Assembly (NCBI RefSeq): GCF_021390395.1
Contig: NZ_JAJUWT010000002.1
Span: 186,001-250,000, forward strand
From: Saccharothrix sp. S26
GTDB taxonomy: Bacteria; Actinomycetota; Actinomycetes; Mycobacteriales; Pseudonocardiaceae
Direction: 5' to 3'
Length of the DNA stretch: 64,000 nucleotides
How positions within the stretch are numbered: the first letter of the stretch is position 1; each line of letters opens with the position of its first letter. The translations under genes were made by a program, and so were the position numbers. This document shows, piece by piece, positions 3 through 55,413 of this stretch. Below the pieces are notes generated by a model. The model was not told the DNA's origin and did no database searches. It saw only the letters and a program-made list of their open reading frames with translations.

Positions 3-284
3 CGCGCGATGGAGCTGATCGAGGAGCTGGAACCGACCCGCCGCGGCCTGTACGGCGGCGTCGTCGGCTACCTGGACTTCGCGGGCGACGCCGACACCGC
101 GATCGCCATCCGCACCGCCCTGGTGCGCGACGGCGTGGCGTACGTGCAGGCCGGTGGCGGCATCGTGGCCGACTCGGACCCGGTCGCCGAGGACAACGAG
201 TGCCTGAACAAGGCGGGCGCGGTGCTCTCGGCGGTCGCGACCGCGCAGACCATGGCCCCGGCGGTGGACCCGGCCCGTGTCTGA
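3..284 (+). CDS. trpE: Anthranilate synthase component I, C-terminal fragment
   Basis: This is the last 93 codons of anthranilate synthase component I, which makes anthranilate from chorismate as the first step of tryptophan synthesis. The gene is cut by the window edge, and the reading frame enters at base 3. The segment [17 protein letters not shown] followed by IAIRTALV and the region around [11 protein letters not shown] are the typical C-terminal chorismate-binding signature of TrpE. The stop overlaps the next gene by 8 bp, so the two are probably translationally coupled. An aminodeoxychorismate synthase is a weaker alternative, made unlikely by the trp genes that follow. Confidence 0.93.
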
Positions 285-756
285 CGAGTCGGCCGCCCGG
301 CGTCCACTGTGGATCGTGGTGGCGCTGCTGCTGCTCGGCGCGCTGGCGTTGTGGGGCGCTTCGGCGCTGTCCTGGGACGCTTCGGCGGACCGAAGCGGCG
401 GGGAGGTCGTGCCCGCGCTGACCCCGTTGGCGCTGCTCTTCCTGGCCGCCATCGCCGCCGTGGTGGCGTTGGGCGGCTGGGTGCGGCGGGTGCTGGGCGT
501 GGTCGTGCTGCTGGCGGGCGCGGCAACGGCGTTCCAAGGGGTGGACGCCGACGGGCCCGTGACGGGGCGCGGCCTCGTGCTGCTGGGCGCGGCCCTGGCG
601 GTCGCCGCGGGCGTACTGCTCGTCGTGCGCGGATCGGCCATGCCACGCCTGGGCGGCGGCTACCAGACGCCCGGCGCGGCCAAGCGGACCGCCGACCCGG
701 AGCGGGAGCTGTGGAACGCCCTGGAACGCGGCGACGATCCCACGGAGCGGGACTGA
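277..756 (+). CDS. Trp biosynthesis-associated membrane protein
   Basis: A 159-residue integral membrane protein whose GTG start overlaps the end of trpE. It has about four hydrophobic segments: near residues 10-30, 48-65, 70-87 and 95-115. It ends in a charged tail rich in Arg and Glu. Size, topology and position directly after trpE match the actinobacterial family annotated as Trp biosynthesis-associated membrane protein (Trp_oprn_chp). The biochemical role of that family is not known, and nothing in the sequence adds to it. Placement between trpE and trpC suggests co-transcription with the pathway. Confidence 0.85.
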
Positions 757-29768: not shown

Positions 29769-29837
29769 TTCTCGTTATCGTGGCGCGTCCGACGAGTCTC
29801 CGGTGAGGTAAGCCCGAACTCGGCCGAGAGGAACGGT

Positions 29838-31610
29838 ATGCGCACACCAGGGGACGCGGCGGCGGTGACGGCCGCGCAGCGGGGCGAGCCCGGCGCGCTG
29901 GACGCGCTCGTGGCCGCCTACCTGCCGTTGGTCTACAACGTGGTGGGGCACGCGCTGGCGGGCCACCCGGACACCGACGACGTGGTGCAGGAGACCATGC
30001 TCCGCGCGCTGAACGGCCTGTCGAAGCTGCGCGAGCCCGAGGCGTTCCGGTCGTGGCTGCTGGCCATCGCGATGAACCAGGTGCGCGACCACCACCGGAC
30101 CAGGCCGCCGCTGGCCGACGCCGAACCGGCCGACCTGCCCGACCCGGGCGCGGACTTCGCCGACCTGGCCATCACCCGGCTCCAGCTCACCGGCCAGCGC
30201 CGGGAGGTCCTGTCGGCCACCCGGTGGATCGGTGACGACGAGCGCGAGCTGCTGTCGCTGTGGTGGCTGGAGCAGGTCGGCCGGATCACCCGCGCCGAGC
30301 TGGCCGAGGCGTTGGACCTCACGCCGCAGCACGCGGCCGTGCGGGTGCAGCGGATGAAGGCCCAGCTCGACGGGGCACGGGTGGTCGTCCGGGTGCTCGC
30401 CGGGCCGCGCTGCGGCGCGCTGGCCGAGGTGGTCGCCGACTGGGACGGGCGGCCCAGCGCGTTGTGGCGCAAGCGGATCGTGCGGCACGCGCGGGAGTGC
30501 GCCCGGTGCGCCCGCGGTTTCGACGACCTCGCGGCGGTGGACGGCCTGCTGGCCCGCATCCCGCTCGTGCCGCTGCCCGCCGGGTTCGACCTGGCCGCGC
30601 AACCCGTGGTCGCGGTGGTGAAGAAGGGCTTCTGGGCGAACGCCGCCACCAAGCCGTTGATCGCGGCGGCGGCCGTGGCGGCGGTGGCGGGCGCGGTCGT
30701 GCTGCTGCCCGTCGAACGGACTCCGACGCCCACGCCGATGGCCGCCCCGGTCGCCGTCACGACCACGCGGATGCCCTCGACCGTCCCGCCCACGACGACA
30801 ACAACGACCACCACCACCACAACCACGACAACCACCACCACGACGACAGCAGCACCCGTCGAACCCGCGCCGGTCGCCAAGTCGGTGAAGAAGGGCGTCA
30901 GCACCTGGCACTTCGACGGCGTCACGGCCGCGTTGGCCGACGTCGGCGCGGGCTGGTTCTACAACTGGGCCCCGACCAGGGAGAACGTGCAGCCGCCACC
31001 CGGCGTGGAGTACGTGCCGATGATCTGGGGAGCCAAGGCGGTGACCCCGGCGAACCTCCAGGCGGTCCGCGGGCAGGGCACCACCCTGCTCGGCTTCAAC
31101 GAGCCGGACCTCGCCGAGCAGTCGAACATGACCGTGGAACAGGCGCTGGACCTGTGGCCGCAGCTCCAGGCGACCGGGATGCGCCTGGGCAGCCCGGCCG
31201 TCGCGCACAGCGGTGACAAGGCGGGCGGTTGGCTCGACCGGTTCCTGGCGGGCGCGCGCGACCGTGGGCTGCGGGTCGACTTCATCACCCTGCACTGGTA
31301 CGGCTCGGACTTCGGCCCGGCCGCCGTGGGGCACCTGAAGAGCTACTTGGACGCCGTGCACGCCCGGTACGGCCTGCCGATCTGGCTCACCGAGTACTCG
31401 CTGATGGACTTCTCCGGCGGCGCGGTGCGGTACCCGGACGCGCGGCAGTTGGCCGACTTCGCCGGCGCGTCCTCACGGATGCTCGAAAACCTGCCCTACC
31501 TGGAGCGCTACGCGTGGTTCGCGCTCCCCGCCGACAAGCCGGGCACGGGGCTGTACGTGCCCGGGGGGACGCCCAACCGGGCCGGCGAGGCCTATCGCGC
31601 CACCGGTTAG
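29838..31610 (+). CDS. ECF sigma factor fused to zinc anti-sigma motif, TM helix and GH domain
   Basis: A 590-residue multidomain protein. Residues 20-87 match sigma region 2 (DDVVQETMLRALNG; AFRSWLLAIAMNQVRDHHR), and 134-178 fit region 4 (LTPQHAAVRVQRMK). Next is H217-R-E-C221-A-R-C224, the HX3CX2C pattern of zinc anti-sigma domains, then a TM helix at about 271-291, a linker with 19 consecutive Thr at 319-337, and a C-terminal domain at 351-590 like the Asl1/GH128 beta-glucanases, with GFNEPD (Glu422) and WLTEYS (Glu519). It would put a sigma factor inside the cell and a glucan-active or glucan-binding domain outside on one chain. ECF proteins with membrane-spanning extensions are known in actinobacteria. 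The ATG follows GAGAGG. Confidence 0.85.
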   Translation: MRTPGDAAAVTAAQRGEPGALDALVAAYLPLVYNVVGHALAGHPDTDDVVQETMLRALNGLSKLREPEAFRSWLLAIAMNQVRDHHRTRPPLADAEPADLPDPGADFADLAITRLQLTGQRREVLSATRWIGDDERELLSLWWLEQVGRITRAELAEALDLTPQHAAVRVQRMKAQLDGARVVVRVLAGPRCGALAEVVADWDGRPSALWRKRIVRHARECARCARGFDDLAAVDGLLARIPLVPLPAGFDLAAQPVVAVVKKGFWANAATKPLIAAAAVAAVAGAVVLLPVERTPTPTPMAAPVAVTTTRMPSTVPPTTTTTTTTTTTTTTTTTTTAAPVEPAPVAKSVKKGVSTWHFDGVTAALADVGAGWFYNWAPTRENVQPPPGVEYVPMIWGAKAVTPANLQAVRGQGTTLLGFNEPDLAEQSNMTVEQALDLWPQLQATGMRLGSPAVAHSGDKAGGWLDRFLAGARDRGLRVDFITLHWYGSDFGPAAVGHLKSYLDAVHARYGLPIWLTEYSLMDFSGGAVRYPDARQLADFAGASSRMLENLPYLERYAWFALPADKPGTGLYVPGGTPNRAGEAYRATG

Positions 31611-31704: not shown

Positions 31705-33585
31705 TCAGGCGATGGTCCACTTCTGGTTCGCGCCGCCCGTGCACGTCCAGATCTGCAACCGGGTGCCGTCGGCGCTGGTGTTGCCCGTGACGTCCACGCA
31801 CTTGCCGGTCGCCGGGTTCACCAGGTCGCGGCCCGACGTGTAGGTCCACTGCTGGTTCGCGCCGCCCGCGCAGCTCCACAGCTGCAACTGCGCGCCGTCG
31901 GCCGTGCCGCGGTCCTTGATGTCCAGGCACTTGCCGAGCGCGCGCAACGTGCCGTCACCGGGCCGCGACCACTGCTGCGCCGCCGTGCCGTTGCACGAGT
32001 ACAGCTGCACGGCCGCGCCGTCCGCGTTGCTCCCACCCGCCACGTCGACGCACTTCCCGGCCAGGCCGGTGATCGCGCCGCCGCTGCCGCCGGGGTTGCC
32101 GGAACCGGGCGTGCCCTGCCAGGTGAACGTCGCCGACGTGCGGGCGGGCAGGGCGTAGGTGAACGACTGGTTGCCCCAGTTCACCCGGATCGACTGGGCC
32201 GATGTGCCGCCGTTGTGCGCGATCAGGGCCTTGGAGCCGTCCGGGTTGCGGTAGGCGACGTTCTGCACCGCGCCGTTGGCGGTCGAGTCGATCCGGTACG
32301 CGCCCGGCTTGACGAACTTCGTCAGGTGCCCGGTCGTGTAGTACTCGATCGTGTAGTCGACCTGGCCGGCCCGCGAGCCGCCCTCCTGCACGGTGATCAG
32401 ACCGGTGCACGTGCCGCAGCCGCCGTTGTGGGGCCCCATGTCCTGGTTGAGCGCCAGGCTCCACTTCACCAGGCTGGAGCTCCAGTTGCGGGCGTAGTTG
32501 ACGATGTCGGCCATGTCCTCGTTGTGCTGGTTGGCGATCCACGTGCCGCCGGAGTGCTCGGTGCTGAACTGCTTCACGGCCGGGTACTGGTCGCGCACCT
32601 GCGTGCCGACTGCGGGGTCACCGAAGTAGCCGTGCCACGCGATGCCGCCGAACAGCGGGTCGTTGCGCACGCCCGCGTCGCCCAGCACGCCGGAGCCGAA
32701 GTTGGCGTAGTCGCCGTAGTTCCAGTCGTGCACCAGCACCTTGGTGGTGATGCCCGCCGCGCGGAACGCCGGGTAGAGGTTGTTCTTGGTGAACTCGACC
32801 AGGCCCGCCGGGTTCCAGCTCATGCCGGGGTAGTTCATCGCGGTCGGGTTGGACGCCTGGCAGCAGTTCGGCTCGTTCTGCACGGACACGTAGTCGACCG
32901 GGATGCCCGCGGCCTGGTAGCTCTGCACGTACTTCACGAAGTACTGCGCGTACATCGGCGCGTACTCCCACTTGAGCCAGCCCATCTGGTCCATGCGGCC
33001 GTTGTCCTTCATCCAGCCCGGCGCGCTCCACGGCACGCCCTTGACCCGGAGCTGCGGGTTGAGCTGCTTGGCCTGCTGGGTCAGCAGCCGCACGTTCGTG
33101 TCGTAGCCGTTCGCGCCCCAGTCGTTGAGGTCGCAGCACGTGTCGTCGAGCGAGACGTGGCCGGGCCGGGACAGGTCGGACGCGCCGATCGGGTTGCGCA
33201 CGAACGACAGGCCGATGCCGTCGACCGGGTGGAACAGCTTGCGCATGACCGCGTCCCGGGTGGCGGCCGAGACCGGACCGCCGCGCAGCAGGTAGGCGGT
33301 GGTGTCGGTGATCGACGCGCCGCCGCCCTCGAACTGCTGGTAGGTCGTGCCCTCGTTGACGGTGATGGTGTGGGTCGCGCTGCCGCCGTTGGAGCTGAAC
33401 GCGATCGACGGCTGCTGCTGGAGGCCGCGGGTGACCGTGCGGCCGCCGCTGTCGGAGGTGGTGGTCAGGTAGACGTTCACGGTCTCGCCCGCGGCGGCGG
33501 CCGGCTGCGAGGCGGCGAGGGCGGCGGCGAACGTGATCAACGTTATGCCGGCGCTGGCGAAAGCCCGACGGTGGGAAGAGGGCAC
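31705..33585 (-). CDS. Secreted GH30-family glycosidase with ricin-type lectin domain
   Basis: A 626-residue exported enzyme. A signal peptide covers about residues 1-31 (TFAAALAASQPAAAA). The catalytic TIM barrel and side domain have YQQFEGGGASITDT near residue 81, VSVQNEPN with acid/base Glu237, and FSTEHSGG with nucleophile Glu342, the GH30 pattern. A beta-sandwich follows to about 490. Residues 500-626 form a CBM13/ricin lectin with three repeats, each ending in QQW or QKW. Members act on beta-1,6-linked glucan or galactan, glucosylceramide or xylan; the exact substrate is open. The GTG start has AAGGAG well spaced. It may be controlled by the LacI protein encoded upstream. Confidence 0.9.
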   Translation of the reverse strand: MPSSHRRAFASAGITLITFAAALAASQPAAAAGETVNVYLTTTSDSGGRTVTRGLQQQPSIAFSSNGGSATHTITVNEGTTYQQFEGGGASITDTTAYLLRGGPVSAATRDAVMRKLFHPVDGIGLSFVRNPIGASDLSRPGHVSLDDTCCDLNDWGANGYDTNVRLLTQQAKQLNPQLRVKGVPWSAPGWMKDNGRMDQMGWLKWEYAPMYAQYFVKYVQSYQAAGIPVDYVSVQNEPNCCQASNPTAMNYPGMSWNPAGLVEFTKNNLYPAFRAAGITTKVLVHDWNYGDYANFGSGVLGDAGVRNDPLFGGIAWHGYFGDPAVGTQVRDQYPAVKQFSTEHSGGTWIANQHNEDMADIVNYARNWSSSLVKWSLALNQDMGPHNGGCGTCTGLITVQEGGSRAGQVDYTIEYYTTGHLTKFVKPGAYRIDSTANGAVQNVAYRNPDGSKALIAHNGGTSAQSIRVNWGNQSFTYALPARTSATFTWQGTPGSGNPGGSGGAITGLAGKCVDVAGGSNADGAAVQLYSCNGTAAQQWSRPGDGTLRALGKCLDIKDRGTADGAQLQLWSCAGGANQQWTYTSGRDLVNPATGKCVDVTGNTSADGTRLQIWTCTGGANQKWTIA

Positions 33586-55399: not shown

Positions 55400-55413
55400 T
55401 GAGAGCGCTCTCA
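55400..55413. promoter_or_regulatory. CebR-type operator before cebE
   Basis: TGAGAGCGCTCTCA is a perfect 14-bp palindrome, close to the CebR consensus TGGGAGCGCTCCCA of Streptomyces. It lies 43 bp before the cebE start. CebR would repress the operon until cellobiose binds. Confidence 0.85.

Follow-up and report, generated by a model that had tools for sequence, protein, structure and literature searches.

The stretch of DNA described here, hereafter the window, comprises 64,000 nucleotides of Saccharothrix sp. S26 (RefSeq assembly GCF_021390395.1, contig NZ_JAJUWT010000002.1, positions 186,001 to 250,000). It carries a gene whose product combines, on one chain, a sigma factor of the extracytoplasmic function (ECF) type, a zinc anti-sigma-like segment, a single membrane helix and a glycoside hydrolase (GH) domain of family GH128 (Table 1). 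The ECF superfamily model sigma70-ECF TIGR02937 (NCBIfam) covers residues 20-177 (E 1.4e-19), and the best phmmer match of the chain is RpoE 1or7, with an alignment over residues 6-178. Region 4 is visible in the structure model as helices at residues 119-130, 133-146, 152-158 and 163-188; Pfam offers no sigma-4 match for it, only AsnC/MarR-type helix-turn-helix matches under their cut-offs. Hydropathy places one membrane helix after the zinc segment, with Lys 262, 263 and 272 on its N-terminal side, and the stalk beyond it, the length of which differs among orthologues (alignment A2), contains exactly 19 consecutive Thr encoded by mixed ACN codons. The full-length model has a mean predicted local distance difference test score (pLDDT) of 79.3 and a predicted template modelling score (pTM) of 0.47, with residues 244-343 below a pLDDT of 50.

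The preliminary description of this DNA had listed the same parts, namely sigma regions 2 and 4, an HX3CX2C motif, one membrane helix, 19 threonines in a row and a GH128-like domain with Glu422 and Glu519, and all of them are recovered. It had also considered that an assembly error might join two genes. This is excluded, because the full chain is carried by 14 of 25 Saccharothrix genomes, that of the window included (the other 13 each as one open reading frame, ORF), as well as by loci of six other named genera. The sequence features support the proposal, also made earlier, that one chain couples a cytoplasmic sigma factor, via the zinc anti-sigma-like segment and one membrane helix, to a GH128 domain predicted to lie outside the cell.

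Zinc anti-sigma domains follow a consensus in which a Cys or His stands about 25 residues ahead of H-X3-C-X2-C. In the window protein, the HX3CX2C motif is H217-C221-C224, and a further residue that had escaped mention, C192, lies 25 positions before H217, so that the four residues have the consensus spacing. All four are invariant in 17 of 17 rows of alignment A1 and in 38 of 38 rows of alignment A4. A model of residues 1-251 (pLDDT 87.3, pTM 0.80) finds its best structural matches in anti-sigma complexes (CnrH-CnrY, SigW-RsiW and RpoE-NepR), with template modelling (TM) scores relative to the target of 0.69-0.77, whereas the polymerase-bound ECF sigmas among the matches listed reach target TM values of 0.30-0.41 with a root mean square deviation of 22-29 Å. 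This model is consistent with self-inhibition of the sigma part, short of proving it.

At the other end of the chain, Pfam recognizes Glyco_hydro_cc at residues 370-585 (E 5.2e-46), and the outer domain superimposes on the AmGH128_I structures with target TM scores of 0.97-0.98 at 61-62% identity. E422 and E519 align with the glutamates mutated in the crystal structures 6uat (E102A), 6uas (E199A) and 6ufl (E199Q). Comparison of 29 fused GH128 domains (the repeats L075, L076 and L155-L157 being dropped) yields 72 invariant positions, including E422 and E519 in 29 of 29, and at three of these 72 the majority of eight stand-alone or crystal GH128 sequences differ. Such near-complete invariance, together with the catalytic pair, speaks for a functional active site and against an inactive, lectin-like remnant, and the outer domain is apparently a competent endo-β-1,3-glucanase. 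Binding-only relatives do exist, as GH128 subgroup VII proteins are oligosaccharide-binding according to their PDB titles; the present domain belongs to subgroup I. The median pairwise ratio of nonsynonymous to synonymous substitution rates (91 pairs per region, one being skipped for the zinc segment) is 0.235 for GH128, 0.257 for sigma, 0.338 for the zinc segment, and 0.534 for the linker, membrane helix and stalk. Stand-alone, secreted-looking GH128 proteins are encoded in seven genomes of the genus, and a search of the window's own genome found none.

Table 1. Features of the fused sigma factor gene and its surroundings (window positions)
Feature	Position	Strand	Details
Fused sigma / zinc anti-sigma-like / membrane helix / GH128 gene	29838..31610	+	590 aa, uninterrupted ORF; ATG at 29838, stop at 31608-31610
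Sigma-70 region 2	29907..30104	+	Residues 24-89; PF04542 Sigma70_r2, E 1.3e-14
Sigma region 4 with helix-turn-helix	30192..30401	+	Residues about 119-188; TIGR02937, model helices
Zinc anti-sigma-like segment	30393..30581	+	Residues about 186-248; C192, H217, C221, C224
Single membrane helix	30654..30710	+	Residues about 273-291; hydropathy, best 19-residue window 274-292
19-Thr run in Thr/Pro stalk	30792..30848	+	Residues 319-337
Outer GH128 subgroup I domain	30882..31607	+	Residues 349-590; PF11790 and match to AmGH128_I
Catalytic glutamates	E422 31101-31103; E519 31392-31394	+	Alignment to AmGH128_I
Promoter-like element GTTATC-N16-GTCTCC	29774..29801	+	Putative -35/-10 boxes, 36 nt ahead of the ATG
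GH30 + ricin-lectin neighbour gene	31705..33585	-	Judged outside the system

The upstream regions of the genes of this family share the element GTTATC-N16/17-RTCTCC, of which the copy before the sigma gene is the sole exact match within the window. A looser form, GTTAT-N17..20-TCTCC, precedes 90 of 106 distinct family genes at a distance of up to 250 bases (the repeats L075 and L076 not counted; many start codons were placed from a profile match, so that element distances are approximate), with a spacing of 18 in 83 genes and 19 in seven. The remaining sequence of the same loci holds two matches in 2.5 million positions. The 16 genes without the element comprise those with beta-helix (L060-L064), Lcl_C (L009) and AbfB (L147) heads, one GH128-head gene (L161) that keeps GTTATC and has lost the second box, and L109, L111, L128, L134, L135, L144, L149 and L162.

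The element also stands before other genes in relatives. In the genus of Actinoplanes utahensis, strict sites are present in 60 of 60 genomes, with 159 sites in a summed tally vs. 4 matches of a reversed-pattern control. Reading the downstream gene at the first listed site of 30 of these genomes gives sigma-GH128 (11), GH16 (8), DUF1996 (3), GH64 (1) and other or unresolved genes (7); β-1,3-glucanases of two GH families, GH16 and GH64, are therefore found behind it. Two of the eight GH16 proteins (L351 by BLAST only, L353 by Pfam) belong to a second type, which has F5/8 C domains and a more distant site, 165 nt before the ATG at L353. A second set of 40 sites, picked by spacer class and overlapping the first 30, has a GH16 gene behind every site whose spacer is GTTCCGGAAC or degenerate (20 of 20), at a distance of 67-75 nt from the start; the remainder precede sigma-GH128 (11), BTAD/SARP-type regulator (6, L386 Pfam-checked) and DUF1996 genes (3, L403 Pfam-checked). 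The solved proteins nearest to the A. utahensis GH16 protein bear the names glucanase or β-1,3-glucanase. Two side observations concern these promoters. At the GH16 promoters L366-L384 the GTTCCGGAAC palindrome often lies in the spacer and looks like the operator of a second regulator over a sigma promoter. At L386-L391 the element precedes a BTAD/SARP-type AAA regulator by 34-35 nt with a nearly fixed spacer, and this protein may be a downstream regulator within the same circuit.

Lentzea-type genomes, which also have the GH128 head, contain a DUF1996 gene behind a strict site in 4 of 6 cases (L253, L290, L292 and L293, the first Pfam-checked), with one more site, L291, without an assigned gene; DUF1996 genes thus carry the element in two families. 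For the CAP head, 17 Streptomyces, Kitasatospora and Streptantibioticus genomes offer 22 strict sites away from the reference sigma gene. Three precede secreted CAP proteins (L244, L295 and L300, by Pfam), three further family sigma genes, and ten secreted- or lipoprotein-looking products (mostly from reading the N-terminus; two of them start 175 and 237 nt from the element), while six are unresolved. A further CAP gene diverges from the sigma gene at L247, behind the near-match GTTATG. Together, the 20 genomes of one scan behind these counts hold 33 sites vs. one control match, and the three that are without a strict site have GTTATT at their own sigma sites. In two Saccharothrix genomes whose sigma head has no Pfam match, the element precedes an alginate-lyase-like Tat lipoprotein (L254 and L255; at L254 just over the Pfam cut-off); a relative of this lipoprotein follows the element in a CAP-head Streptomyces (L303), which misfits a strict correspondence between head and target. 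The idea of a head-target match is strong where the head is GH128 and suggestive where it is CAP, with the other heads left open.

The range of heads is broad. The same sigma, zinc and membrane-helix chassis carries GH128, Lcl_C, beta-helix, CAP or AbfB heads, or heads without a Pfam match. A family survey finds a sigma-part match at E 1e-40 or better in 8 of 60 genomes. When named genomes were scanned for the sigma/zinc part, the best 80 of 559 confirmed places were kept (more exist); by motif tests these 80 comprise 13 GH128 heads, 58 CAP-like tails and one AbfB head, the other eight having no readable head because of a contig end or a lost frame. The 13 GH128-head loci are from Saccharothrix, Umezawaea, Lentzea, a "Nocardia sp." strain, Micromonospora, Dactylosporangium, Actinoplanes and Spirilliplanes. 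Pfam confirms the CAP head for L084 and L298; the sigma genes L301 and L247, scanned alongside, have heads without a match. In a quick tree built from 62 sigma parts (without bootstraps, with every second CAP row kept and 16 duplicate, cut or unclear loci left out), the six head types need five changes, the minimum possible; CAP occupies one side of a branch whose support is 89 (not starred), and GH128 needs two changes. As the heads are clustered on the tree, head exchange appears to be rare and old rather than frequent.

Several members deserve mention in their own right. A paralogue in the window's own genome (L009:4179-6110, contig C6) has the same sigma, zinc, membrane-helix and Thr chassis with an Lcl_C head; it is 49% identical to the window protein over the common part and is without the promoter element. 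A second fused sigma of this genome (L007, contig C34) has zf-HC2 and an outer part that Pfam does not recognize; it is only 28% identical to the window protein and nearer to the description of SCO4117 (see below). L066:5304-6464 (genome G023) has no sigma region 2 and keeps the region 4-like, zinc and CAP-head parts, being perhaps a decayed copy. Finally, L057, L058 and L059 have an outer head some 200 residues long that Pfam does not recognize (L057 scanned), and their sigma genes keep the element; in two of these genomes it also stands ahead of an alginate-lyase-like gene.

The architecture, the conserved ligands and catalytic pair, and the conservation of the element and its position before the genes named above are direct results of computation, and the mechanism that they suggest is, in our judgement, probable: a self-inhibited, membrane-held sigma factor that senses β-1,3-glucan by a tethered glucanase, is released, and activates its own gene and, in relatives, genes for glucan degradation. 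Sigma regions 2 and 4 would be kept inactive in the cytoplasm by the zinc anti-sigma-like segment that follows them, and the membrane helix and flexible Thr/Pro stalk would hold the GH128 subgroup I domain outside the cell. Contact with β-1,3-glucan (fungal wall, callose or curdlan-type glucan) would alter the outer domain or the stalk, β-glucan being the likely cue, as had been proposed, since the β-1,3-glucanase genes (GH16 and GH64) of Actinoplanes lie behind the same element. Release of the sigma part would follow, most likely through cleavage at and within the membrane, by analogy with the published models for ECF52, ECF53 and SCO4117. Once free, it would read GTTATC-N16/17-RTCTCC at its own promoter, creating positive feedback, and in relatives it would also activate secreted β-1,3-glucanases (GH16, GH64) and a secreted DUF1996 protein.

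A number of points weigh against this mechanism. For the zinc segment, the zf-HC2 profile (PF13490) has no match in the chain up to E 1 in Pfam, and other anti-sigma-bound sigmas (AlgU-MucA, RpoE-RseA, SigK and BldN-RsbN) match the model of residues 1-251 with target TM scores of just 0.45-0.50. That the element is read by the fused sigma itself is deduced from motif matches; many of the 106 genes behind the element count are close relatives and not independent; and the seven Actinoplanes sites counted as other or unresolved include two chance-like ones, L340 (an exonuclease-like ORF) and L361, where the site apparently lies within or at the edge of an unrelated ORF. In the window's own genome there are three exact sites, two of which (on contigs C3 and C11) lie within ORFs. 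The sigma gene is consequently the sole non-coding exact site, and the glucanase regulon is seen in relatives, not in this strain. One mismatch adds 11 sites, nine of them within ORFs; of the two non-coding ones, one has no downstream ORF found and one lies 64 nt before a 238-aa ORF. The resulting 14 sites vs. one control match are mostly in ORFs, and the reversed-pattern control, here as in the other counts, ignores dinucleotides and understates the coding background. For this strain, the sites support self-activation alone, and a glucanase regulon would be an extrapolation from relatives, unless its promoters have drifted.

Nor does the DUF1996 gene seem to be a target in Saccharothrix, where it was considered and rejected: the close orthologues have GAGAGCGCTCTC-type palindromes, a differing upstream region and no element. 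Close DUF1996 orthologues co-occur with the sigma gene (11 of 14 genomes with it vs. 2 of 11 without, Fisher p 0.004), but this association was given no weight, since these are related genomes with a different promoter at the gene. The Saccharothrix DUF1996 genes L306-L318 have GAGAGCGCTCTC-type palindromes upstream and mostly an added N-terminal part, and an exact copy of the palindrome is present at window positions 55401-55412, far from the sigma gene.

Other explanations of the same data can be envisaged. The head might watch the cell's own envelope or stress, with the β-glucan link being secondary. The predominance of CAP-like endings (58 of the best 80 loci, by motif), the position of the element, in CAP-head genomes, ahead of secreted CAP proteins and of further secreted products that have no evident connection with glucan, and the effects of the fused ECF SCO4117 on development and antibiotics (PMC5826349) would suit such a monitor; nevertheless, the candidate targets accompanying the GH128 head include β-1,3-glucanases of two GH families, and we regard this explanation as rather unlikely. 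Alternatively, the chain could mainly anchor a working β-1,3-glucanase, the sigma part only self-sustaining expression without any glucan signal being sensed. Retention of the catalytic pair in all 29 fused domains speaks for this, as does the restriction of non-coding exact sites in the window's own genome to the sigma gene itself. It is unlikely, however, given that the element in Actinoplanes precedes secreted β-1,3-glucanase genes elsewhere in the genome and that the same chassis bears non-glucanase heads (CAP, beta-helix, Lcl_C and AbfB).

It is also conceivable that the element belongs to another sigma factor or activator and that the genes behind it are merely co-regulated with the fused sigma. 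Recognition by the fused sigma is deduced from sequence, and the SCO4117 study gives a different putative motif for its ECF52 sigma (PMC5826349). Yet the element accompanies fused sigma genes in genus after genus, whether their heads are GH128, CAP or unmatched, and six genomes of the genus that have no family match (G001, G003, G007, G012, G021 and G024) hold one strict site in total, which renders this option quite unlikely. As for control of the neighbouring GH30 gene, which the preliminary description had named as a natural target, it now appears very improbable. GH30 does lie near the sigma gene, as 10 of the 13 orthologous loci fetched from Saccharothrix include it, but no element is found upstream of it at up to two mismatches, a LacI-type regulator gene adjoins it, and synteny is lost outside part of Saccharothrix: within about 6 kb on each side, GH30 is found in none of the 11 GH128-head loci from other genera. 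Two loci with other heads (L009 and L060) match the GH30 query solely in its ricin-lectin part (residues 511-624). GH30 is thus a part of the earlier interpretation that finds no support, whereas the architecture, β-glucan as the likely cue and the existence of earlier fused ECFs are supported.

The glucan-sensing mechanism may be one instance of a wider design, which we put forward tentatively, with somewhat less than even confidence. The family would consist of plug-in "tasters", each with a tethered outer head that is related to the secreted proteins under the control of its sigma, or is their functional counterpart, a β-1,3-glucanase head being paired with secreted β-1,3-glucanases and a CAP head with secreted CAP proteins. 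Swaps of the head on a single sigma chassis would have been few and ancient, the GH128, CAP and unmatched-head branches would share one promoter code, and in the GH128 case glucan cleavage may be part of the signal. If the glucan-sensing reading is right, the protein would be a glucan sensor made of one chain, with a bearing on the detection of fungi by soil actinobacteria, and a modular layout open to reuse with different heads. With an element and a candidate regulon acting on the same polymer as the head, the question of the signals and targets of fused sigmas becomes directly testable.

Among known systems, AmGH128_I of Amycolatopsis mediterranei (PDB 6uaq) has the same fold and the same two catalytic glutamates as the head described here. 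Its crystal construct is the GH128 domain alone, whereas the GH128 domain of the window protein forms the outer portion of a sigma factor held in the membrane. In the SigI/RsgI systems, sigma and anti-sigma are separate proteins encoded by separate genes, unlike the single chain of the window, and the sigma is of a type other than the ECF chain found here. These systems of Clostridium thermocellum work alike in that a membrane anti-sigma senses a polysaccharide and the sigma activates matching glycanase genes (PMC10766802).

Closer still are the fused ECFs, of which those with membrane extensions were already known, as had been anticipated (PMC8999054, PMC5826349 and PMC10766802). In ECF48, ECF52 and ECF53, zinc anti-sigma and membrane parts are fused to the sigma and are expected to act by proteolysis, and some ECF52/53 members carry predicted, unvalidated glycosyl hydrolase catalytic domains (PMC8999054, PMC10766802). 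The window protein has the ECF52/53-type layout of sigma, zinc anti-sigma-like segment, one to two membrane helices and outer region on one chain, shared with ECF48. SCO4117 of Streptomyces coelicolor (ECF52), the best understood actinobacterial fused membrane sigma in the text available, resembles it in having a sigma, a zinc finger, a membrane helix, a low-complexity stalk and a carbohydrate-related outer domain, with release by a protease being proposed; its authors call its promoter motif "theoretical", and no signal is named in that text (PMC5826349). SCO4117 is described there with pfam13490 (zf-HC2) and a carbohydrate-binding module, neither of which is among the Pfam matches of the window protein, which has GH128 with its catalytic pair instead; its putative promoter motif also differs from GTTATC-N16/17-RTCTCC (PMC5826349). 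Neither the GH128 fusion nor its promoter was found in the literature searched, a scope that lies outside the primary ECF survey and reclassification papers and covers its sources in part. The comparison with ECF52 and ECF53 is by description; the text consulted on them mentions neither the promoter element nor the regulon of β-1,3-glucanases nor such a variety of heads. Since fused ECFs with membrane extensions are already known, the novelty lies in the specifics: the layout has been published for ECF52 and ECF53, and what is new is the promoter element and the candidate regulon.

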